Shown one piece after another: positions 6,145 through 58,991 of a DNA stretch of 58,991 bases. Position 1 is the stretch's first letter. The number at the start of each line of letters is the position of its first letter. The notes below the pieces were generated by a model. It saw only the letters and a program-made list of their open reading frames with translations. It was not told where the DNA came from and made no database searches. This stretch comes from Defluviitalea phaphyphila (GTDB lineage: Bacteria; Bacillota; Clostridia; Lachnospirales; Defluviitaleaceae): the NCBI RefSeq assembly GCF_001466305.1, contig NZ_JWID01000010.1, forward strand, positions 1 to 58,991, given 5' to 3'. A program made the position numbers and the translations under genes.

Positions 6145-9100
6145 TTAACTTGCCTCTTCATCCTGAACATCAGAAAGTTTTACTGATATTAATTTTGATA
6201 TTCCTTGTTCTTGCATAGTTACACCATATAATGTATCTGCTGCTTCCATAGTCCCTTTTCTATGGGTTATAACAATAAATTGAGTATCTTTAAATTTTTT
6301 TAAATAATTAGCAAACCTGTTTACATTTGCATCATCTAATGCTGCTTCTATTTCATCTAAAACACAAAATGGAGAAGGTTTCATTTTCAATATAGAGAAT
6401 AAAAGGGCAATGGCTGTTAAAGCTCTTTCTCCTCCAGATAATAAAGTCATATTTTGCAATTTTTTCCCTGGGGGTTGAGCAATTATTTCTATTCCCGATT
6501 GCAAAATATTTTTTTCATCTACCAATTGAAGATATCCTTTTCCTCCACCAAATAATTCAACAAAAACTTTATTAAAATTAGATGATATAATGGAAAAATT
6601 TTTAATAAATTGTTTTTCCATAGAAGAAATTAATTCTTTAATAATATTTCTAAGTTTTTTCTCTGCATCTTCAATATCTTTTTTTTGATTTATTAAAAAT
6701 TCATATCTTTCTTTCACTTTTTCATATTCTTCAATAGCATCTAAATTAATATTTCCTAAATTTTTAATTTGATTTTTATAATATTGAGATTTATTTTTCA
6801 TTTCAGATATACTTCCTATATCTTCTTTAAATTTTAAGGCTGAATTATAAGTTTCTTCATATTCTTCCCATATACGATTATATAAATTTTCTTCTTCTAA
6901 CTTTAATTTAGTTTTTTTGTTTTCTATTCTATGAATTTCTTGTTTAATCAAATCAATGTTTTCTCTTGTTTTATTTATGTTATTTTCATATTGTTTGAGT
7001 ATTATGTTTTTTTCTCTTTTTTCTTTTTGTAATTTATTTTGCAGATCAGCATTCGTGCCCAAATTTAAATTTAATTCTCGTATTTTTTCTTTATTTTTTA
7101 TAATTTCTTCTTCTTTTATTTTTATTTCTTTAGAAAGAACTTGTATTTCTTCTTCTTTTTTATTTTTTTCTAAATTTAAATTTTTAATATCATTTTCTAA
7201 ACGTTTTATATCTTCTAAAATATATTGATTTTTTTGTTTTAATGAAGAAATTTCAATTTTTATTTCTGTAATACTAATAGATAAACTTTCTTTCGATGTT
7301 CTTTCTGTTTGTAAATGAGATTGATGAGCTTCAACTTTATTATGTATTTCTTCAATTTCTACTTCAATCTTTTTTAGAATTGAAGTCTCTTTATTTAATT
7401 TTTCTAAAAAATTTTCATATTGAATCTTTAACTGTTCTTCTTCTATTGATAATTGTCTTTTTCTTTCTTCTATTTCTATTAAAAGTTCTTTAGATTGTTT
7501 TATTTTATGGTTTTCCGATATAATTTGCATGTTAATATCTTGAATTTCTTTTTCTTTATTTTCTATTAAAAATATATTTCTATTTTTTTCTTTTTCATAA
7601 GTTTCTAATTCTTGTTGATAACATTCCAGTTTTTTTGAAATTTGGCTTAATTTATGTTTTAATTCTTCTAATTCTCTTGTTCTTGAAAAGAAATTACTAG
7701 ATTTTTGGTATATACTTCCTCCTGTTATTGAACCTCCAGCATTTAAAGCTTCCCCATCTAAGGTAACTATTTTATACTTATAGTCATATTTTCTAGCAAT
7801 TTTTATTCCAAAATTTAAATTCTTTACAATAAATACTCTTCCTAATAAATAAGAAATAATATTTTTATAAATACTATCATATTTAATTATGTCTGAAGCA
7901 ACTCCAAGTATACCTTCTTCTTTTAAAATCTCTTCTTTTTCTCTGCCTAAATAATTTCCTTTTATAGATGTCAACGGTAAAAAAGTTGCTCTTCCTAATT
8001 TATTCTTTTTAAGATATTCAATGATATCTTTAGAAACTTCTTCTGTTGTTGTAACAATATTTTGTAATCTACTTCCTAAAGCTACTTCTATAGCAACTTC
8101 ATATCCTTTAGGAACTTTAATTAACTCTGCTACAACTCCACAAATTCCTTCCCATTTAATAGGATTTTTATTTTTTAATAAAAGAATATTTTTAACACTT
8201 TTACTGAATCCTTCGTATTCCTTTTCCATTTGCTCTATAATTTGCTTTTTAGACTTAATACGATGTTTTTCTTCTGTTAATAAATTTATTTCATTAGATT
8301 TTTTATTTACTACATTAATTATTTTTTTATTTTTATTAATTAAATCATCTATATCTTTTTGTATAATTTCTAATTTATTCTTTTTATCATTCAGTATTTT
8401 TTTAAGCGCATTCAAATGAACTTGCTGATTTTTGTATTGGGTTGCAACTTTTTCCTTCTCATGCTTTATTTGATCTCTTCTATTTTTAATTTGTTCTAAA
8501 TTAGAATTTATTCTTTGAACATTACTCTTTATTTCTGAAGCTTCATTCATTTTTTCAATAATATCAGATTTATATTTTTCAATTTCTGTTTCATTAGATA
8601 ACAATAATTTTGTAAGCTCATTAAAATCTTTTTCATATTTTTCTAAAAGTTCTTCTTTAATTTTTAGTTCTAAATCTATACCATTTTTTTTAACTATTAA
8701 TTTATTTATTTCTTCATCATTCTTAAATATTTTATTTTGAATCTCATTACATTCATTTTGAAGTCTTTTTATGTTTTCATTTAAATGGATAATATCCTGT
8801 TGAATAACTTTATTATCTCCTTGAGATTTTTCAATTATTGTTTTAATATCTATAATTTCATTTTGAAGTTTAAATATTTTTTCATCAAGTTTTTCTATTT
8901 CTTGTTTTACAATTTCATATTGTTCTTTTTGTTTAGTATTAAGTTTTTCTTGATTTAAAAGATTTTCATTATTATTTTCATAAATTTCTTCAAGATCAGA
9001 TATTTGAGATTTTAAATTATCGGCTTCTTTTAAAAATAAATTTAAATCTACCTTTTTTAGTTTATTTTTTATATCTAAATATTTTTTTGTCTTTTCCGCA

Positions 9101-10796: not shown

Positions 10797-11795
10797 TTAT
10801 TTATTTATTTTTTGTTCAATTTCCTCTGCTATCCTTTGTTCTTTAAACTTAATTGCTTGCTTAATAGCACTACTAATAGCTTTTGCATTAGAGCTCCCGT
10901 GTGCTTTTACAACCAATCCTTTTAATCCTAACATGGGTGCTCCTCCATATTCAGTATAATCAAATCTATTTTTTATGTTCCTAAAAGCAGATTTTAATAA
11001 TAATCCTCCTATTTTAGATATAGCATTGCTCATAATTTCTTCCTTTATTATATCAAATAAAGAAAGACCAAATCCTTCTGTATATTTTAAAATAACATTC
11101 CCTGTAAAAGCATCACATACAACAATATCTGCTTTTCCATAAGGAATATCTCTAGCTTCTATATTTCCTATAAAATTAATATCTGCTTTTTCCATTAGAG
11201 TATAAGCTTCTTTTGTAAGTTGATTTCCTTTTTCTTTTTCTGTACCTACATTTACCAATCCAACTTTGGGGGATGGAATATTCATGATGTTTTTCATATA
11301 TATGTATCCCATTTGAGCAAATTGCAACAAATATTCAGGCTTTGCGTCCATATTAGCTCCACAATCTATAAGCAAAGAAAATCCTTTTTTATTTGGAATA
11401 AGTGGAGCAAGAGCAGGTCTTTTTACACCTTTTATTCTTCCTACTAAAAATGTTCCTCCTGCTAAAAGTGCTCCTGTACTTCCTGCTGATATAAAAGCGT
11501 CGGCTTTCTTTTCTTTCAAAAGATTTAACCCTACTACCATGGAGGAATTTTTTTTACTTCTTATGGCAACAACCGGAGATTCTTCCATTGTTATAATTTC
11601 TGTAGTATGTATAATCGATATTTTAGTTTCATCATAAGAGTACTTATTTAATTCATTCTTAATAGCATCTTGATTTCCTACTAAAATAATATGTATATTA
11701 TTTTGATTTAATGCTTCTATACATCCTTTTATAATTTCATTAGGAGCATTATCTCCCCCCATTGCATCAACTGCAATAATTATATTATTTGCCAT
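10797..11795 (-). CDS. plsX: Phosphate acyltransferase PlsX
   Basis: PlsX converts acyl-ACP to acyl-phosphate, the first committed step of phosphatidic acid synthesis in Gram-positive bacteria. The N-terminus [14 protein letters not shown] is the family signature. The interior has [33 protein letters not shown] and the C-terminal [11 protein letters not shown] loop. ATG 11795 is selected because GGAGGTTGTT precedes it, giving 332 residues; the upstream in-frame ATG has no support. No fapR gene or FapR-like palindrome was seen nearby, unlike Bacillus. It is followed by acpP. Confidence 0.96.
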
Positions 11796-11856
11796 AACAA
11801 CCTCCCCATTCTCCCTATATAAAAATCTATTAAAATTTATATAATTAAATAGAACA

Positions 11857-11878
11857 AAAGACAGCAAAAGCTGTCTTT
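11857..11878 (-). terminator. Hairpin between rpmF and plsX
   Basis: Perfect 9-bp stem AAAGACAGC / GCTGTCTTT with a 4-nt loop. On the minus strand it is followed by TGTTCTATTTAATT. It is a partial terminator that would separate rpmF output from plsX. Confidence 0.6.
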
Positions 11879-11885
11879 AAAAATT

Positions 11886-12062
11886 TTATTCTACATCTAA
11901 TACCACACGTTTATTATATGTTCCACAAGACTTGCATGCTCTATGAGGCATCATTAAATCCCCACATTTAGGACATGAAACTAAATTTGGAGAAGTTAAT
12001 TTCCAATTTGCTTTTCTCTTATTTCTTCTAGCTTTAGATGTTTTTCTTTTTGGTACAGCCAA
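11886..12062 (-). CDS. rpmF: 50S ribosomal protein L32
   Basis: This 58-residue gene begins with TTG at 12062 behind AAGGAGGTGTAGAAA. The protein starts MAVPKRKTSKARRNKRKANW, the L32 hallmark, and carries a zinc ribbon with CPKCG (30-34) and CKSCG (43-47), so it is the zinc-binding C+ form. It ends KRVVLDVE. It lies directly downstream of the DUF177 (YceD) gene, the universal yceD-rpmF pairing, and upstream of plsX. Confidence 0.95.
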   Translation of the reverse strand: MAVPKRKTSKARRNKRKANWKLTSPNLVSCPKCGDLMMPHRACKSCGTYNKRVVLDVE

Positions 12063-12114
12063 TTTCTACACCTCCTTAACCATAAATAGACCCCTTATTT
12101 ACAGCAGAAGATTT

Positions 12115-12615
12115 TTACTTAGAACTATCAAATAATGTTCTTAAAACTGCAAAGCGAGAATCTACTACTTCTTCTTTACAATCACAAGTATCCTCATTTA
12201 AATTTTTTCCACATTGTGGACAAATCCCTTTGCATTCTTCGCTGCATACTACTTTCATGGGTATATTTAATAAAATAGCATTAATTAGTATAGGGGTTAA
12301 ATCAATTTCATTACCACTAATAATGTGAATTTCTTCTTCATCATTTTCATAACTACCAAATTTTTCTTCTATTCTTATAGATAAAGAAGTTGGTACTGGC
12401 TTTGTACATCGGTCACAATGTAACTCTAAAACCGTATTAACATCACCATTTAAATATAACATTTTCCCATCACTAATTAGTTCCCCTTTAAATTTAATAG
12501 GGCTAACTAATTTTATTTTTTCAGCTTTAGATTCTATGAAATTAATATTTTCTTCAAAAGATAATTTCATAGTAGCATCGGGAATCTTCATAATTTTAGA
12601 TATATTTAGTATCAT
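12115..12615 (-). CDS. yceD: DUF177 (YceD) family protein
   Basis: A 166-residue protein of the YceD/DUF177 family, which is almost always encoded just before rpmF and in other bacteria and plastids is linked to 23S rRNA accumulation. Two cysteine clusters are visible: CDRC near residue 90 and CSEECKGICPQCGKN near 130-145, followed by CDC. They suggest a metal-binding ribbon. It heads the operon that runs to trmD, 30 nt behind a perfect-consensus promoter. Its exact molecular role is not established. Confidence 0.9.
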   Translation of the reverse strand: MILNISKIMKIPDATMKLSFEENINFIESKAEKIKLVSPIKFKGELISDGKMLYLNGDVNTVLELHCDRCTKPVPTSLSIRIEEKFGSYENDEEEIHIISGNEIDLTPILINAILLNIPMKVVCSEECKGICPQCGKNLNEDTCDCKEEVVDSRFAVLRTLFDSSK

Positions 12616-12644
12616 TATATCACCCCTGTAAGGCTACTCTTGAT

Positions 12645-12673
12645 ATTATACATACAGGGTTATTATTTGTCAA
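12645..12673 (-). promoter_or_regulatory. Consensus sigma-A promoter of the yceD-rpmF-...-trmD operon
   Basis: On the minus strand TTGACA (12673-12668), a 17-bp spacer and TATAAT (12650-12645): a perfect match in both hexamers. It starts only five bases after the ackA stop. Predicted transcription start is near 12638. Confidence 0.9.
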
Positions 12674-12677
12674 TAAA

Positions 12678-13874
12678 TTATTTTTTAAGCAAATTCTTTG
12701 TTTCATAAGCAATCATTAATTCTTCATTAGTAGGAATTACTAGTGTATGAACTTTTGCTCCTTCTGCTGAAAAATCTCTTTCAACTCCTCTGCAATTATT
12801 TTTTTCTTCATCTACTTTAACTCCTAAAAATTCTACATGTTTACATATATCTCTTCTAATCTCATGATTATTTTCTCCAAGTCCTGCTGTAAATACTATA
12901 GCATCAAGTCCATTCATTGCAGCAGCATAAGCTCCTATATATTTTACAACTGTATAAGTAAATACATCCATTGCTATGTTAGCCCTTTCATTTCCATTTT
13001 TCATAGCAGCTTCAATATCTCTAAAATCACTAGAAACTCCTGATAATCCAAGCACTCCAGACTTTTTATTTAATAAATTATCTACTTCTTTAACAGACAT
13101 ATTTTCTTTTTCCATTATAAAACTTACAATAGCTGGGTCAATATCTCCTGAACGAGTCCCCATAACTAATCCTGCTAAAGGAGTAAATCCCATACTTGTA
13201 TCTATAGATTTCCCATTTTTTATAGCACATACACTAGCACCATTTCCCAAATGACAAGTAACAATTTTTAATTCTTCAATAGGTCTTCCTAAAATATTCG
13301 CAGCTCTATTTGCTACATATTTATGAGAAGTTCCATGAAAACCATAACGTCTTATTTTATGCTTTTTATATAATTCATAAGGAATTGCATATAAATAAGC
13401 TTCTTTAGGCATAGTTTGATGAAATGCAGTATCAAATACAGCAACCATAGGTGTATTAGGCATTAATTGTTCACAAGCTTCAATTCCTATTAAATTTGGT
13501 GGATTGTGTAAAGGTGCTAAATCACTACATTCTTCAATAGCTTTTTTTACTTCTTCATTGATAATAACGGACTCACTAAAATATTCTCCTCCATGAACAA
13601 CTCTATGTCCAACAGCAGATATTTCATCCATATTTTTAATAACTCCATAATCATTATTAGTTAAAGCGTCTATTACTAATTTTACTGCATCTTTATGATT
13701 ATTCATTGGAATTTCATTAATAATAGTTTCTTTTCCTTCTGGAGTATGTTTGATTCTTGACCCATCTATTCCAATTCTTTCACAAAGTCCTCTTGCATAA
13801 ACTTTTTCTTCTTCTATATTAATTAATTGATATTTAAGAGAAGAACTCCCACAATTGATTACAAGTATATTCAT
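12678..13874 (-). CDS. ackA: Acetate kinase
   Basis: Acetate kinase makes ATP and acetate from acetyl phosphate, the energy-yielding end of acetate fermentation. The 398 residues show [15 protein letters not shown] at the N-terminus, the [13 protein letters not shown] motif (His near 180), [11 protein letters not shown], the GTRSGDIDP loop, FTAGLGENN and the C-terminal [10 protein letters not shown]. It lies 60 nt behind pta, so the two are probably co-transcribed and catalyse consecutive steps. Confidence 0.97.
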
Positions 13875-57249: not shown

Positions 57250-57438
57250 ATGAATACATCTAATAATATGCCAAAACACATGCCTTTTCCCATGATGCCT
57301 GTAATGCCAAAAAATATTCAACTCGCTAGGACTTATATTCTAGATCAACCTTATGATAATTTATTCCCATTAAATGAAGCATTAAAAAAAGGAACCTTAT
57401 TTCCTAATCTTTATCAACCATATTCAAAAAATAAATAA
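57250..57438 (+). CDS. cotJA: Spore coat-associated protein CotJA
   Basis: A 62-residue Pro/Met-rich protein with the CotJA pattern: a PFPMMPVMPKNIQLARTYILDQ stretch (PMPPMP...LARAYVPFQ-like) followed by PYDNLFPLNEALKKGTLFPNLYQPY. ATG 57250 is chosen with AAGGAG ten bases upstream; the GTG three codons before would overlap that site. In Bacillus cotJABC is a mother-cell, sigma-E-dependent operon for inner coat proteins. CotJB follows 12 nt later. Confidence 0.92.
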   Translation: MNTSNNMPKHMPFPMMPVMPKNIQLARTYILDQPYDNLFPLNEALKKGTLFPNLYQPYSKNK

Positions 57439-57450
57439 AGGAGGATATAT

Positions 57451-57753
57451 ATGGATATAATGCATAGGGAACAATGCTTAAGAAAAATACAAGAATTAGA
57501 ATTTGCAGTAATTGAACTTAATTTATATTTAGATACCCATCCTACCCATCAACAAGCTCTTATGGACTATAATAAACTTACTCAAGAATTAATGAACGCT
57601 AAGATTATGTACGAAAGACAATTTGGCCCATTAACTAATTTCGGATATGCTCCTAGCCAATATCCTTGGCAATGGATAGAATCTCCTTGGCCTTGGGAAA
57701 ATGAACATACATGTAAGGAGGATATGTCATGTGGATCTATGAAAAGAAATTAG
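57451..57753 (+). CDS. cotJB: Spore coat protein CotJB
   Basis: A 100-residue protein with the CotJB features LRKIQELEFAVIELNLYLDTHP, QALMDYNKLTQELMNAK and the Trp-rich tail YPWQWIESPWPWE. AAGGAGGATATAT precedes the ATG. It overlaps the cotJC start by 25 bases, as the operon usually does. It acts with CotJA and CotJC in the spore coat. The last ~14 residues (CKEDMSCGSMKRN) arise from the overlap. Confidence 0.93.
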   Translation: MDIMHREQCLRKIQELEFAVIELNLYLDTHPTHQQALMDYNKLTQELMNAKIMYERQFGPLTNFGYAPSQYPWQWIESPWPWENEHTCKEDMSCGSMKRN

Positions 57754-57935
57754 AATATCCAGTTAAAGTTGATAGTTGCAACCCTACTCTTGCAGCTATG
57801 ATTTTAGAACAATTTGGAGGTCCTGATGGAGAATTATCAGCTGGAATAAGATATCTTACCCAAAGATGGACCATGCCTACTAATCAAGCTAAAGCTATTC
57901 TTACAGATATTGGAACTGAAGAATTAGTACCATAA
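57729..57935 (+). CDS. cotJC: CotJC, 5' part cut off by an inserted element
   Basis: CotJC is normally a ~190-residue manganese-catalase-like coat protein. Here only about the first 66 residues match: MWIYEKKLEYPVKVDSCNP, LAAMILEQFGGPDGELSAG, IRYLTQRWTMPTNQAKAIL and the conserved TDIGTEEL, where the next family residues are AHLEMI (metal ligands). The frame instead reads VP and stops. The following DNA has higher GC and foreign genes, so the gene is interrupted at about 57927-57930. AAGGAGG precedes ATG 57729. It could be restored if the element excises during sporulation. Confidence 0.9.
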   Translation: MWIYEKKLEYPVKVDSCNPTLAAMILEQFGGPDGELSAGIRYLTQRWTMPTNQAKAILTDIGTEELVP

Positions 57936-57961
57936 TGTTATAAGTGATAGCCAATAAAATA

Positions 57962-57994
57962 CCCGCAACCCCTTGGAATTAAAGGAATTGCGGG
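57962..57994 (-). terminator. Terminator near the element's left end
   Basis: CCCGCAA / TTGCGGG outer stem and CCTT / AAGG inner stem; on the minus strand it is followed by TATTTTATTGG. It ends the small gene at 58016. Confidence 0.75.
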
Positions 57995-58015
57995 CGTTTA
58001 TGCTTATGTATATTA

Positions 58016-58252
58016 TTATTGCTCCGCTGCTACTGAAAAGTGCTCCTGTGCTTTGCGGGCTATACTAGCTAAGATATCCTCAATGTCTTTATCGCTGCGA
58101 TTATAGCAATAATCATCACATATCTTTATACGGGTATTGCCTATCTTAAACTCCTCTACAACATTATTCTTTTTTCTTTCCTTATTCTTCTCAGCCACGC
58201 ATACACCACCTCTTGGTAATGTATATGCTACTGCTGATTGTCCTCTTGCCAT
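58016..58252 (-). CDS. Small element-encoded protein of unknown function
   Basis: A 78-residue protein read towards the cotJC junction. Two starts are possible: ATG 58252 behind GGGGGTATATCA, or GTG 58198 behind AGAGGTGG, which gives a 60-residue protein beginning VAEKNKERKKN. The core VVEEFKIGNTRIKICDDYCY resembles small proteins seen beside recombinase genes in Firmicute prophages and integrative elements (from memory, not searched). It is charged, with no membrane segment. Being nearest the junction, it could be an excision accessory factor, but that is inference. Confidence 0.6.
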   Translation of the reverse strand: MARGQSAVAYTLPRGGVCVAEKNKERKKNNVVEEFKIGNTRIKICDDYCYNRSDKDIEDILASIARKAQEHFSVAAEQ

Positions 58253-58420
58253 TGATATACCCCCAATAAACTCGTTTTTATGGGGTGTTTTATGAATGGC
58301 CTGATTTTGCGGGGGATTTTACTAATAAAAAATGCGAGTGTTCTTTATCGTCCTAAGATATTTAGCACAGGTAAGACTGGCCTAATGTGTGTAGTATGTG
58401 TTAAAATCTGCGTAGAGGAG

Positions 58421-58991
58421 GTGATAGGCATAGCTCGACTAACTGAAAAGCAAAAGAAAATCCAAGAATATCTAAAAAACGCTTGGGAACTGTCCGATAG
58501 AAGCGTCGCTCGTGCATTGGGTGTTTCTCATTCCACGGTCGGTAGGGTGCGTCAAGAAATGATTCAAAGTGGTCGATTCGACCATCTGTCTAATGAGGAC
58601 GAGGAGTGGATGAACCACCCGTATATACAAGCAAATAAAGGCTTATTGGAAACTTTGAATCCACGAGGACTGCGCGCTATTAAAAGGCTTGATGTGCTTG
58701 ACTATATGATGACACACCCACAAATAAAAAGTCCTTGTGTCGCACAGGCTTACCTTGAAAGAGAGAAAAGGCAAAAACGTAAGGATGCAAGAGTAGTTTT
58801 GAACATAAATGACGTAGATATCAGGGTTGCTGACGTCAGGCAGGTTGGACAGTTTGACTGGATAAGGGATAATAGCGTTGATTTATGTATATGTGACCCG
58901 CCGTGGGGTAAATCGTCGCCTGAGGTGTGCGAAGGTATAAGTAAAGTTGCTGCCAGTAAACTCCGTGATGGAGGCAATTTACTTGTTCTTG
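58421..58991 (+). CDS. HTH-DNA methyltransferase (partial, runs off the right edge)
   Basis: An open frame to the window end. Residues near the start read ARLTEKQKKIQEYLKNAWEL followed by a helix-turn-helix, DRSVARALGVSHSTVGRVRQ, then a linker and, near the end, a methyltransferase motif with DLCICDPPWGKS (DPPW, N6-adenine type) and KLRDGGNLLVL. Such proteins occur in phages and mobile elements. The start is uncertain: AGGAGG (58416-58421) is ideally placed for an ATA codon at 58430; GTG 58421 overlaps the site. The frame stays open upstream to ATG 58292, but that stretch has an unlikely composition. Confidence 0.7.
   Translation, partial: MIGIARLTEKQKKIQEYLKNAWELSDRSVARALGVSHSTVGRVRQEMIQSGRFDHLSNEDEEWMNHPYIQANKGLLETLNPRGLRAIKRLDVLDYMMTHPQIKSPCVAQAYLEREKRQKRKDARVVLNINDVDIRVADVRQVGQFDWIRDNSVDLCICDPPWGKSSPEVCEGISKVAASKLRDGGNLLVL

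Follow-up and report, generated by a model that had tools for sequence, protein, structure and literature searches.

The window analysed here is a stretch of 58,991 nucleotides from Defluviitalea phaphyphila (contig NZ_JWID01000010.1, positions 1 to 58,991 of the forward strand), taken from a draft genome of 76 contigs. Further in the text this genome is referred to as G000, and the contig of the window as C2. At the right end of the window lie the cotJ genes, which have a mother-cell role, and the third of them, cotJC, is broken off. In G000 this gene consists of three pieces and is interrupted by two mobile elements (elements 1 and 2), each with its own recombinase. The right end of the window contains the following features.

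57250–57438, forward strand: cotJA, intact (PF11007, E = 5.5e-13).
57451–57753, forward strand: cotJB, intact (PF12652, E = 3.7e-30).
57729–57923, forward strand: piece 1 of cotJC, codons 1–65 (PF05067, E = 4.6e-24, profile positions 1–67 of 284).
57919–57924, forward strand: attL with the core AAGAA (57919–57923) and the palindrome centre AAGAAT, common in register with contig C15 (...TGGAACCAAAGAACTTGC).
57960–58000, reverse strand: terminator-like inverted repeat CCCGCAA...TTGCGGG 3' of the small open reading frame (ORF), noted by sequence inspection.
58016–58198, reverse strand: the small ORF, a candidate recombination directionality factor (RDF) of 60 aa with a GTG start at 58198 and the core NVVEEFKIGNTRIKICDDYCYNRSDKDIEDILASIARKAQEHF.
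58219–58243, reverse strand: promoter-like signal 5' of the small ORF, GGACAATCAGCAGTAGCATATACAT, with the SpoIIID box GGACAA at 58243–58238 and a sigma-E/K-like −10 box at 58228–58219.
58421–58991, forward strand: gene of element 1 encoding a helix-turn-helix and an adenine DNA methyltransferase (DPPW), truncated by the window end (weak helix-turn-helix matches; PHROG 67, 3.5e-6).

Past the break the frame of cotJC continues as TDIGTEEL-VP-stop into element 1, the stop codon ending at 57935, and the GC content changes from 27.3% (positions 1–57926) to 41.4% (57927–58991). Element 1 has no contiguous assembly, because C2 stops at 59598 and just past the window (C2:58992–59080) contains one N and then 88 bp identical to the end of the window, probably marking an assembly gap at a repeat common with contig C22.

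Piece 2 of cotJC was found by a Pfam search of the same genome on contig C15 (7696–7340, reverse strand). It begins with AHWEII and ends with FGET-NR-stop; relatives of the same family run about 14 residues further, and hence the gene is interrupted again, the first break being at codon 65 and the second at codon 175. The gene order in the uninterrupted relative G001 is era(−) cotJA cotJB cotJC(+) cdd(−). The last piece was therefore expected beside cdd and was found there on contig C22 (about 13350–13290), where the last 15 codons, FGETSRILQEYVDSKKYY-stop, are followed by cdd. A degenerate search of the genome for QEYMDSKR gave no match, since the actual residues are QEYVDSKK, and it was synteny that located this piece. 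The contig order C2-C15-C22 is backed by the era-cotJABC-cdd synteny in G001. Joining the pieces at the two att cores yields a CotJC of 190 aa with no stop or frameshift at either junction. When aligned to the manganese catalases 1jku, 4r42 and 6j42, it has E35, E65, H68, E136 and H169, which stand at the metal-ligand positions of 1jku. Full-length SpoIVA is also kept in G000.

Each element carries a large serine recombinase (LSR) gene near its right junction. LSR1 (538 aa) is encoded on C15 and reads towards piece 2, and LSR2 (507 aa) is encoded on C22; the two are distant (24% identity) and both comprise the Resolvase, Recombinase and Zn-ribbon domains. The LSR genes lie about 40–60 bp from the right junctions (44 bp from the LSR1 stop to piece 2, ~40 bp from LSR2 to piece 3), and at most breaks surveyed the distance from the end of the LSR gene to the break is 20–90 bp. 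The best NCBIfam match of LSR1 is XisF (NF041201, 1e-25), far below the curated cut-off of 375 bits; the scores obtained with this family are 90.6 and 134.3 bits.

The deduced attP sites of both elements are strong palindromes. Given 24-nt arms, 19 of the 24 positions match around AAGAAT for element 1 (at most 16 in shuffles) and 21 of the 24 around TGGTGAAACT for element 2 (at most 15), where the core is GAAACT. The palindrome centres place the crossover at GA of the Glu65 and Glu175 codons; at attL this dinucleotide lies within the codon of the conserved Glu65, the metal-ligand equivalent. For 46 breakpoints with both flanks available, the longest in-register run averaged 7.1 nt, compared to 2.9 nt when each was shifted to 90 other registers; since the joins are in frame by construction, the evidence here is solely the length of the run. 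The split of cotJC, its att sites and the link to the LSR genes are firm. A crossover at TGGAAC in G000, produced by automatic joining at the longest shared word, was rejected, as the palindrome analysis led to AAGAA and the same rule would give a stop codon in genome G150. A symmetry scan with narrow offsets overlooked the palindromes of the attachment site labelled B.

An earlier note on this DNA had described cotJA and cotJB as intact, the family match of cotJC as ending at TDIGTEEL with a stop soon after, and the GC content as shifting at the junction, all of which agrees with the Pfam matches and the measured composition. It had also anticipated a short repeat near 57920–57930, now placed as the core matched on C15, an LSR at the element end, and a 3' part of cotJC, which was indeed found and bears no disabling mutation. 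The expected remainder exists on C15, but it starts with AHWEII and not with AHLEMI as forecast. The single interruption by a candidate sporulation element that the note envisaged is supported as to its kind, yet the gene has two, and the phenomenon is widespread.

To estimate its frequency, the CotJC profile (A2) was matched against 294 genomes of the order. It matched 182 of them, including genomes with only a paralogous manganese catalase, and a second search at a relaxed threshold covered the genomes that lacked a full-length copy. In 68 of the 182, or roughly a third, the gene is split into at least two abutting pieces and no intact copy is present (a hand count from tables, with some pieces on different contigs). 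The control gene era, chosen because sigK has too many paralogues, matched strongly, and mostly over its full length, in the 294 genomes with about 10 exceptions. Closed or single-contig cases are G032 (53 kb), G109, G150, G206, G223 and G278, while G166 spans two contigs. Pieces of one gene that share a contig are on a single strand and in the correct order. The breaks cluster near codons 29–32, 62–65, about 99, about 130, 136 and 175, mostly at metal-ligand motifs. In a phylum-wide sample, split copies were rarer outside the order; Clostridium carboxidivorans P7 also has one. On its sequence NZ_CP011803.1 the cotJC pieces lie at about 2159556–2159750 and from about 2163307 onwards, with the LSR gene between them at about 2161689–2163290.

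Two further arrangements were seen. Partial copies of cotJC (e.g. codons 98–190) stand repeatedly in tandem on one contig in regions of G084, G179 and G217 (L172, L174, L176), and may be what successive insertions that captured 3' ends have left behind. Locus L151 (G059) is broken at codon 62 by 2.2 kb of inserted DNA, which holds an aminotransferase-like gene and a recombinase shortened to 288 aa; this recombinase belongs to a different LSR lineage, and the core is TAGGTA.

Eighty relatives of LSR1 were fetched from the genome collection together with organism names. About 50 of them adjoin a cotJC piece starting or ending at codons 61–68, among them those of C. carboxidivorans P7, C. thailandense, Sedimentibacter acidaminivorans and Caproiciproducens galactitolivorans. 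On the tree of 126 LSRs (FastTree; the branches are long), the enzymes of the site labelled A form one clade, and site labels are strongly clustered (0 of 200 shuffles as low). Other relatives of LSR1 split asparagine synthetase genes at the SGECADE/IFGGYPW motif, as observed at nine loci (L089, L104, L107, L112, L120, L123, L127, L130 and L133). A sister LSR clade resides in GH18 genes of the SleL/YaaH type (spore cortex-lytic-like), broken after MTYEWGY (L125, L132, L134); L132 has a divergent small ORF behind the same GGACAA signal as in the window. These GH18 targets may be sporulation genes too.

The elements at cotJC range in size from a 53-kb prophage to about 2.7–3.5 kb. The element of G032 has terminase, portal, major head, sheath, tape-measure and baseplate genes and is a myovirus-like prophage. 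In addition to an LSR and the small ORF, the smallest elements have between one and three genes. In G000, the elements encode methyltransferases of the C5 and N6 types, a nuclease resembling FokI/BpuJI and small resolvases. Restriction-modification genes of the elements (C5 methylases and a FokI/BpuJI-like nuclease) lie at L007:2271–4884 and 11389–13503; with them, the elements may be defence islands concealed within a sporulation gene. A control region and methyltransferase gene of 82% identity are common to elements 1 and 2 (window 58176–58991 vs L008:13365–15927 on C22). The similarity starts at the 5' end of the small ORF, and the small ORFs and LSRs differ, which suggests an exchange of modules.

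The small ORF belongs to a family with the core HIVxEFxIGNTRIKICDDYCRDKTPEDVQxILxRIA, for which neither Pfam nor PHROG gave a match. Its hidden Markov model recovers members at about 60 collected loci, mainly in site-B elements and mostly divergent from the LSR gene; on viral contigs with this LSR, the family was found in 57 of 80, usually in opposite orientation to the LSR gene. In locus L096 the small ORF lies at 8193–8378 on the reverse strand. Simple regular expressions for sigma-E, sigma-K and sigma-A promoters showed no enrichment upstream of LSR genes. Upstream of the small ORF, only the sigma-K expression was enriched (10 of 99 vs 1.1 expected), an observation that led to a motif centred on GGACAA. 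The resulting consensus is GTMATAGGACAA-N9-(C/G)AATAAA-T, and the signal in the window is a variant of it. The 99 upstream zones contain 19 copies of the composite motif, against 6 in 2.6 Mb of other sequence, an enrichment of about 2000-fold. The SpoIIID box has GGACAA as its core, and the hexamers on either side are like those of sigma-E promoters. In element 2, on C22, the same signal stands upstream of a small ORF that adjoins LSR2 and is unrelated to this family, as if the control region had been kept while the LSR/RDF pair was swapped. The co-occurrence with LSR genes and the promoter-like motifs mark the small ORF as the candidate RDF of these elements.

This signal bears on the question whether excision is developmental at all. 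Elements could be lost by prophage-like induction or at random, so that the population is mixed and selection acts via element-free cells. Such behaviour would suit those elements that are full prophages, as in G032, and it has a precedent in the yin element of C. botulinum, which was found in the integrated as well as in the excised state at every time point (PMC10747680). It would fit less well with the SpoIIID/sigma-E-like signal 5' of a conserved small ORF, with the retention of LSR and small ORF in elements of about 3 kb lacking obvious phage genes, and with the target being a mother-cell gene. We consider non-developmental excision unlikely.

Another possibility is that cotJC is permanently dead and that the prophages or islands inserted by LSRs have left only decaying remnants of it. 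C. difficile might seem to tolerate such a loss, as a passage in PMC11222575 reports that cotCB and cotD mutants lose catalase activity and show no significant coat defect; moreover, the gene is fragmented further in G068, G084 and G093, and a few pieces contain stops. The 3' pieces in general tell otherwise. In the integrated state they themselves have neither a start codon nor a promoter, and nevertheless their frames are open to the natural end or to the next att site. The 44 pairs with finite dS give these pieces a median ratio of nonsynonymous to synonymous divergence (dN/dS) of 0.074 and a maximum of 0.143; for intact genes the ratio is 0.05.

If the insertions were merely recent, the LSR would be expected to be younger than the gene divergence. 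The dS values of the LSR and the adjacent 3' piece are 0.20 and 0.21, 0.79 and 0.84, and 0.71 and 0.59 in Caproiciproducens and a related metagenome-assembled genome, 1.00 and 0.98 in Oscillibacter, and 0.95 and 1.12 in Clostridium, and in these matched pairs dN/dS of the 3' piece is 0.03–0.10. Because the two clocks agree in three lineages, the pieces were conserved while disconnected. The simplest reading is that in their common ancestor cotJC was split, and that the product has remained necessary ever since. Together with the undamaged junctions in G000, this makes a permanently dead gene quite improbable. The restoration of cotJC is strongly supported by selection in relatives, and since the detached pieces there remain intact, the gene is very probably rejoined at sporulation. 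The earlier note had named a dead cotJC as the alternative to a restorable one, and both the purifying selection matching the LSR age and the conserved small ORF with its mother-cell-type promoter signal favour the restorable gene.

An artificial joining of three unrelated contigs, which the 76-contig draft and the N with its 88-bp repeat might suggest, is rejected as practically negligible: the flanks are syntenic with G001, the att sites of either junction are palindromic, and closed genomes show the identical structure within single contigs.

We consider it highly likely that skin- or gin-like elements rebuild cotJC in the mother cell by excision triggered by the small ORF. In vegetative cells cotJC would be split, with only its first third translatable. 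In the mother cell, sigma-E and SpoIIID would switch on the small ORF, whose product would make the recombinase excise instead of integrate. The two elements would then exit as circles, leaving a complete gene for the 190-aa CotJC manganese catalase of the spore coat. The cost of the insertion to the host would be low, because the mother cell dies and the forespore keeps the split copy, by which the element is inherited. In this model we infer the RDF function, the mother-cell timing and the excision itself.

Several observations weigh against this reading. Element 1 is not contiguous in the assembly. dS is saturated for the window genome, and selection was measured in relatives. In the pair L064/L065, dS of the LSR is 0.03 and that of cotJC 0.55, so conservation is uninformative on excision there; because such pairs show recent transfer, the elements are still mobile. 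Some site-B LSRs have no detectable small ORF, only 19 of the 99 upstream regions contain the strict composite motif, and the RDF role rests on co-occurrence and promoter-like motifs. Finally, targeting of cotJC is not exclusive, because close relatives of LSR1 occupy asparagine synthetase and GH18 genes as well as some further sites.

A broader proposal, which we hold with moderate confidence, is that cotJC serves as a developmental docking gene for Clostridia in general. Different LSR clades would use distinct sites within one gene of 190 codons, several of them at manganese-site codons (GA of Glu65, Glu136) or at the invariant QYGG and FGE motifs, with up to three elements stacked. Prophages, defence-gene islands and remnants of about 3 kb would all rely on a mother-cell-controlled excision factor from an undescribed family of small proteins. 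If the excision of the cotJC elements works as proposed, developmental DNA excision is common in sporulation of Clostridia, and cotJC is often wrongly annotated as missing or as a pseudogene. The natural series from the 53-kb prophage to about 3 kb of LSR plus small ORF makes the domestication of phages into developmental elements directly testable, and the many sets of LSR, attB and candidate RDF could be used as genetic tools.

Sporulation genes are known to harbour intervening elements removed by serine recombinases, such as SPbeta in spsM and vfbin in spoVFB. In cyanobacterial heterocysts, an LSR (XisF, fdxN element) performs developmental excision in a terminal cell; there the phylum and the gene are different, and LSR1 is not a member of the XisF family. 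At cotJC we find what marks an intervening element, namely insertion in the coding region, an LSR at one end and end repeats that restore the frame. The main text of PMC10083194 describes convergence of diverse LSRs on attB sites within conserved genes and, outside the reference list, mentions neither catalase nor spores. The nearest mention in the literature is a passage of PMC11222575 on the C. difficile phage phi027, with a CotJC homologue lying downstream of its attR. A full-text search of open-licence papers found no report of cotJC as a target of intervening elements, and an earlier one may exist.

Like yin, which a serine recombinase removes from yabG of C. botulinum V73 (PMC10747680), the cotJC elements lie in a sporulation gene and would be removed by a serine recombinase. 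Yin was reported as unique to one strain (PMC10747680), whereas the interruption of cotJC recurs in many genera and at several sites. In the C. difficile skin element, located in sigK, it is the RDF CD1234 and not the LSR that is controlled by sigma-E and SpoIIID (PMC5025042), and at cotJC the LSR has beside it a small ORF preceded by a SpoIIID/sigma-E-like signal. In contrast to sigK, which encodes a sigma factor, cotJC encodes a structural coat enzyme, and therefore its excision would not gate the sporulation programme. A close parallel is the non-phage gin element in gerE, a small mother-cell gene of Bacillus cereus ATCC10987, with restriction-modification genes, several serine recombinases, the small RDF GirX (42 aa) and a short shared core (PMC5595907). 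The G000 elements resemble it in their restriction-modification genes and extra small resolvases, and the cotJC elements share with it the short core and have a small ORF as candidate RDF. They differ in the gene itself, in the presence of two elements in one gene and in several att sites across species. Earlier sporulation intervening elements are scattered cases (sigK, spsM, spoVFB, gerE, yabG), and what is notable at cotJC is the frequency of the interruption, the several sites within one gene and the stacking of elements.
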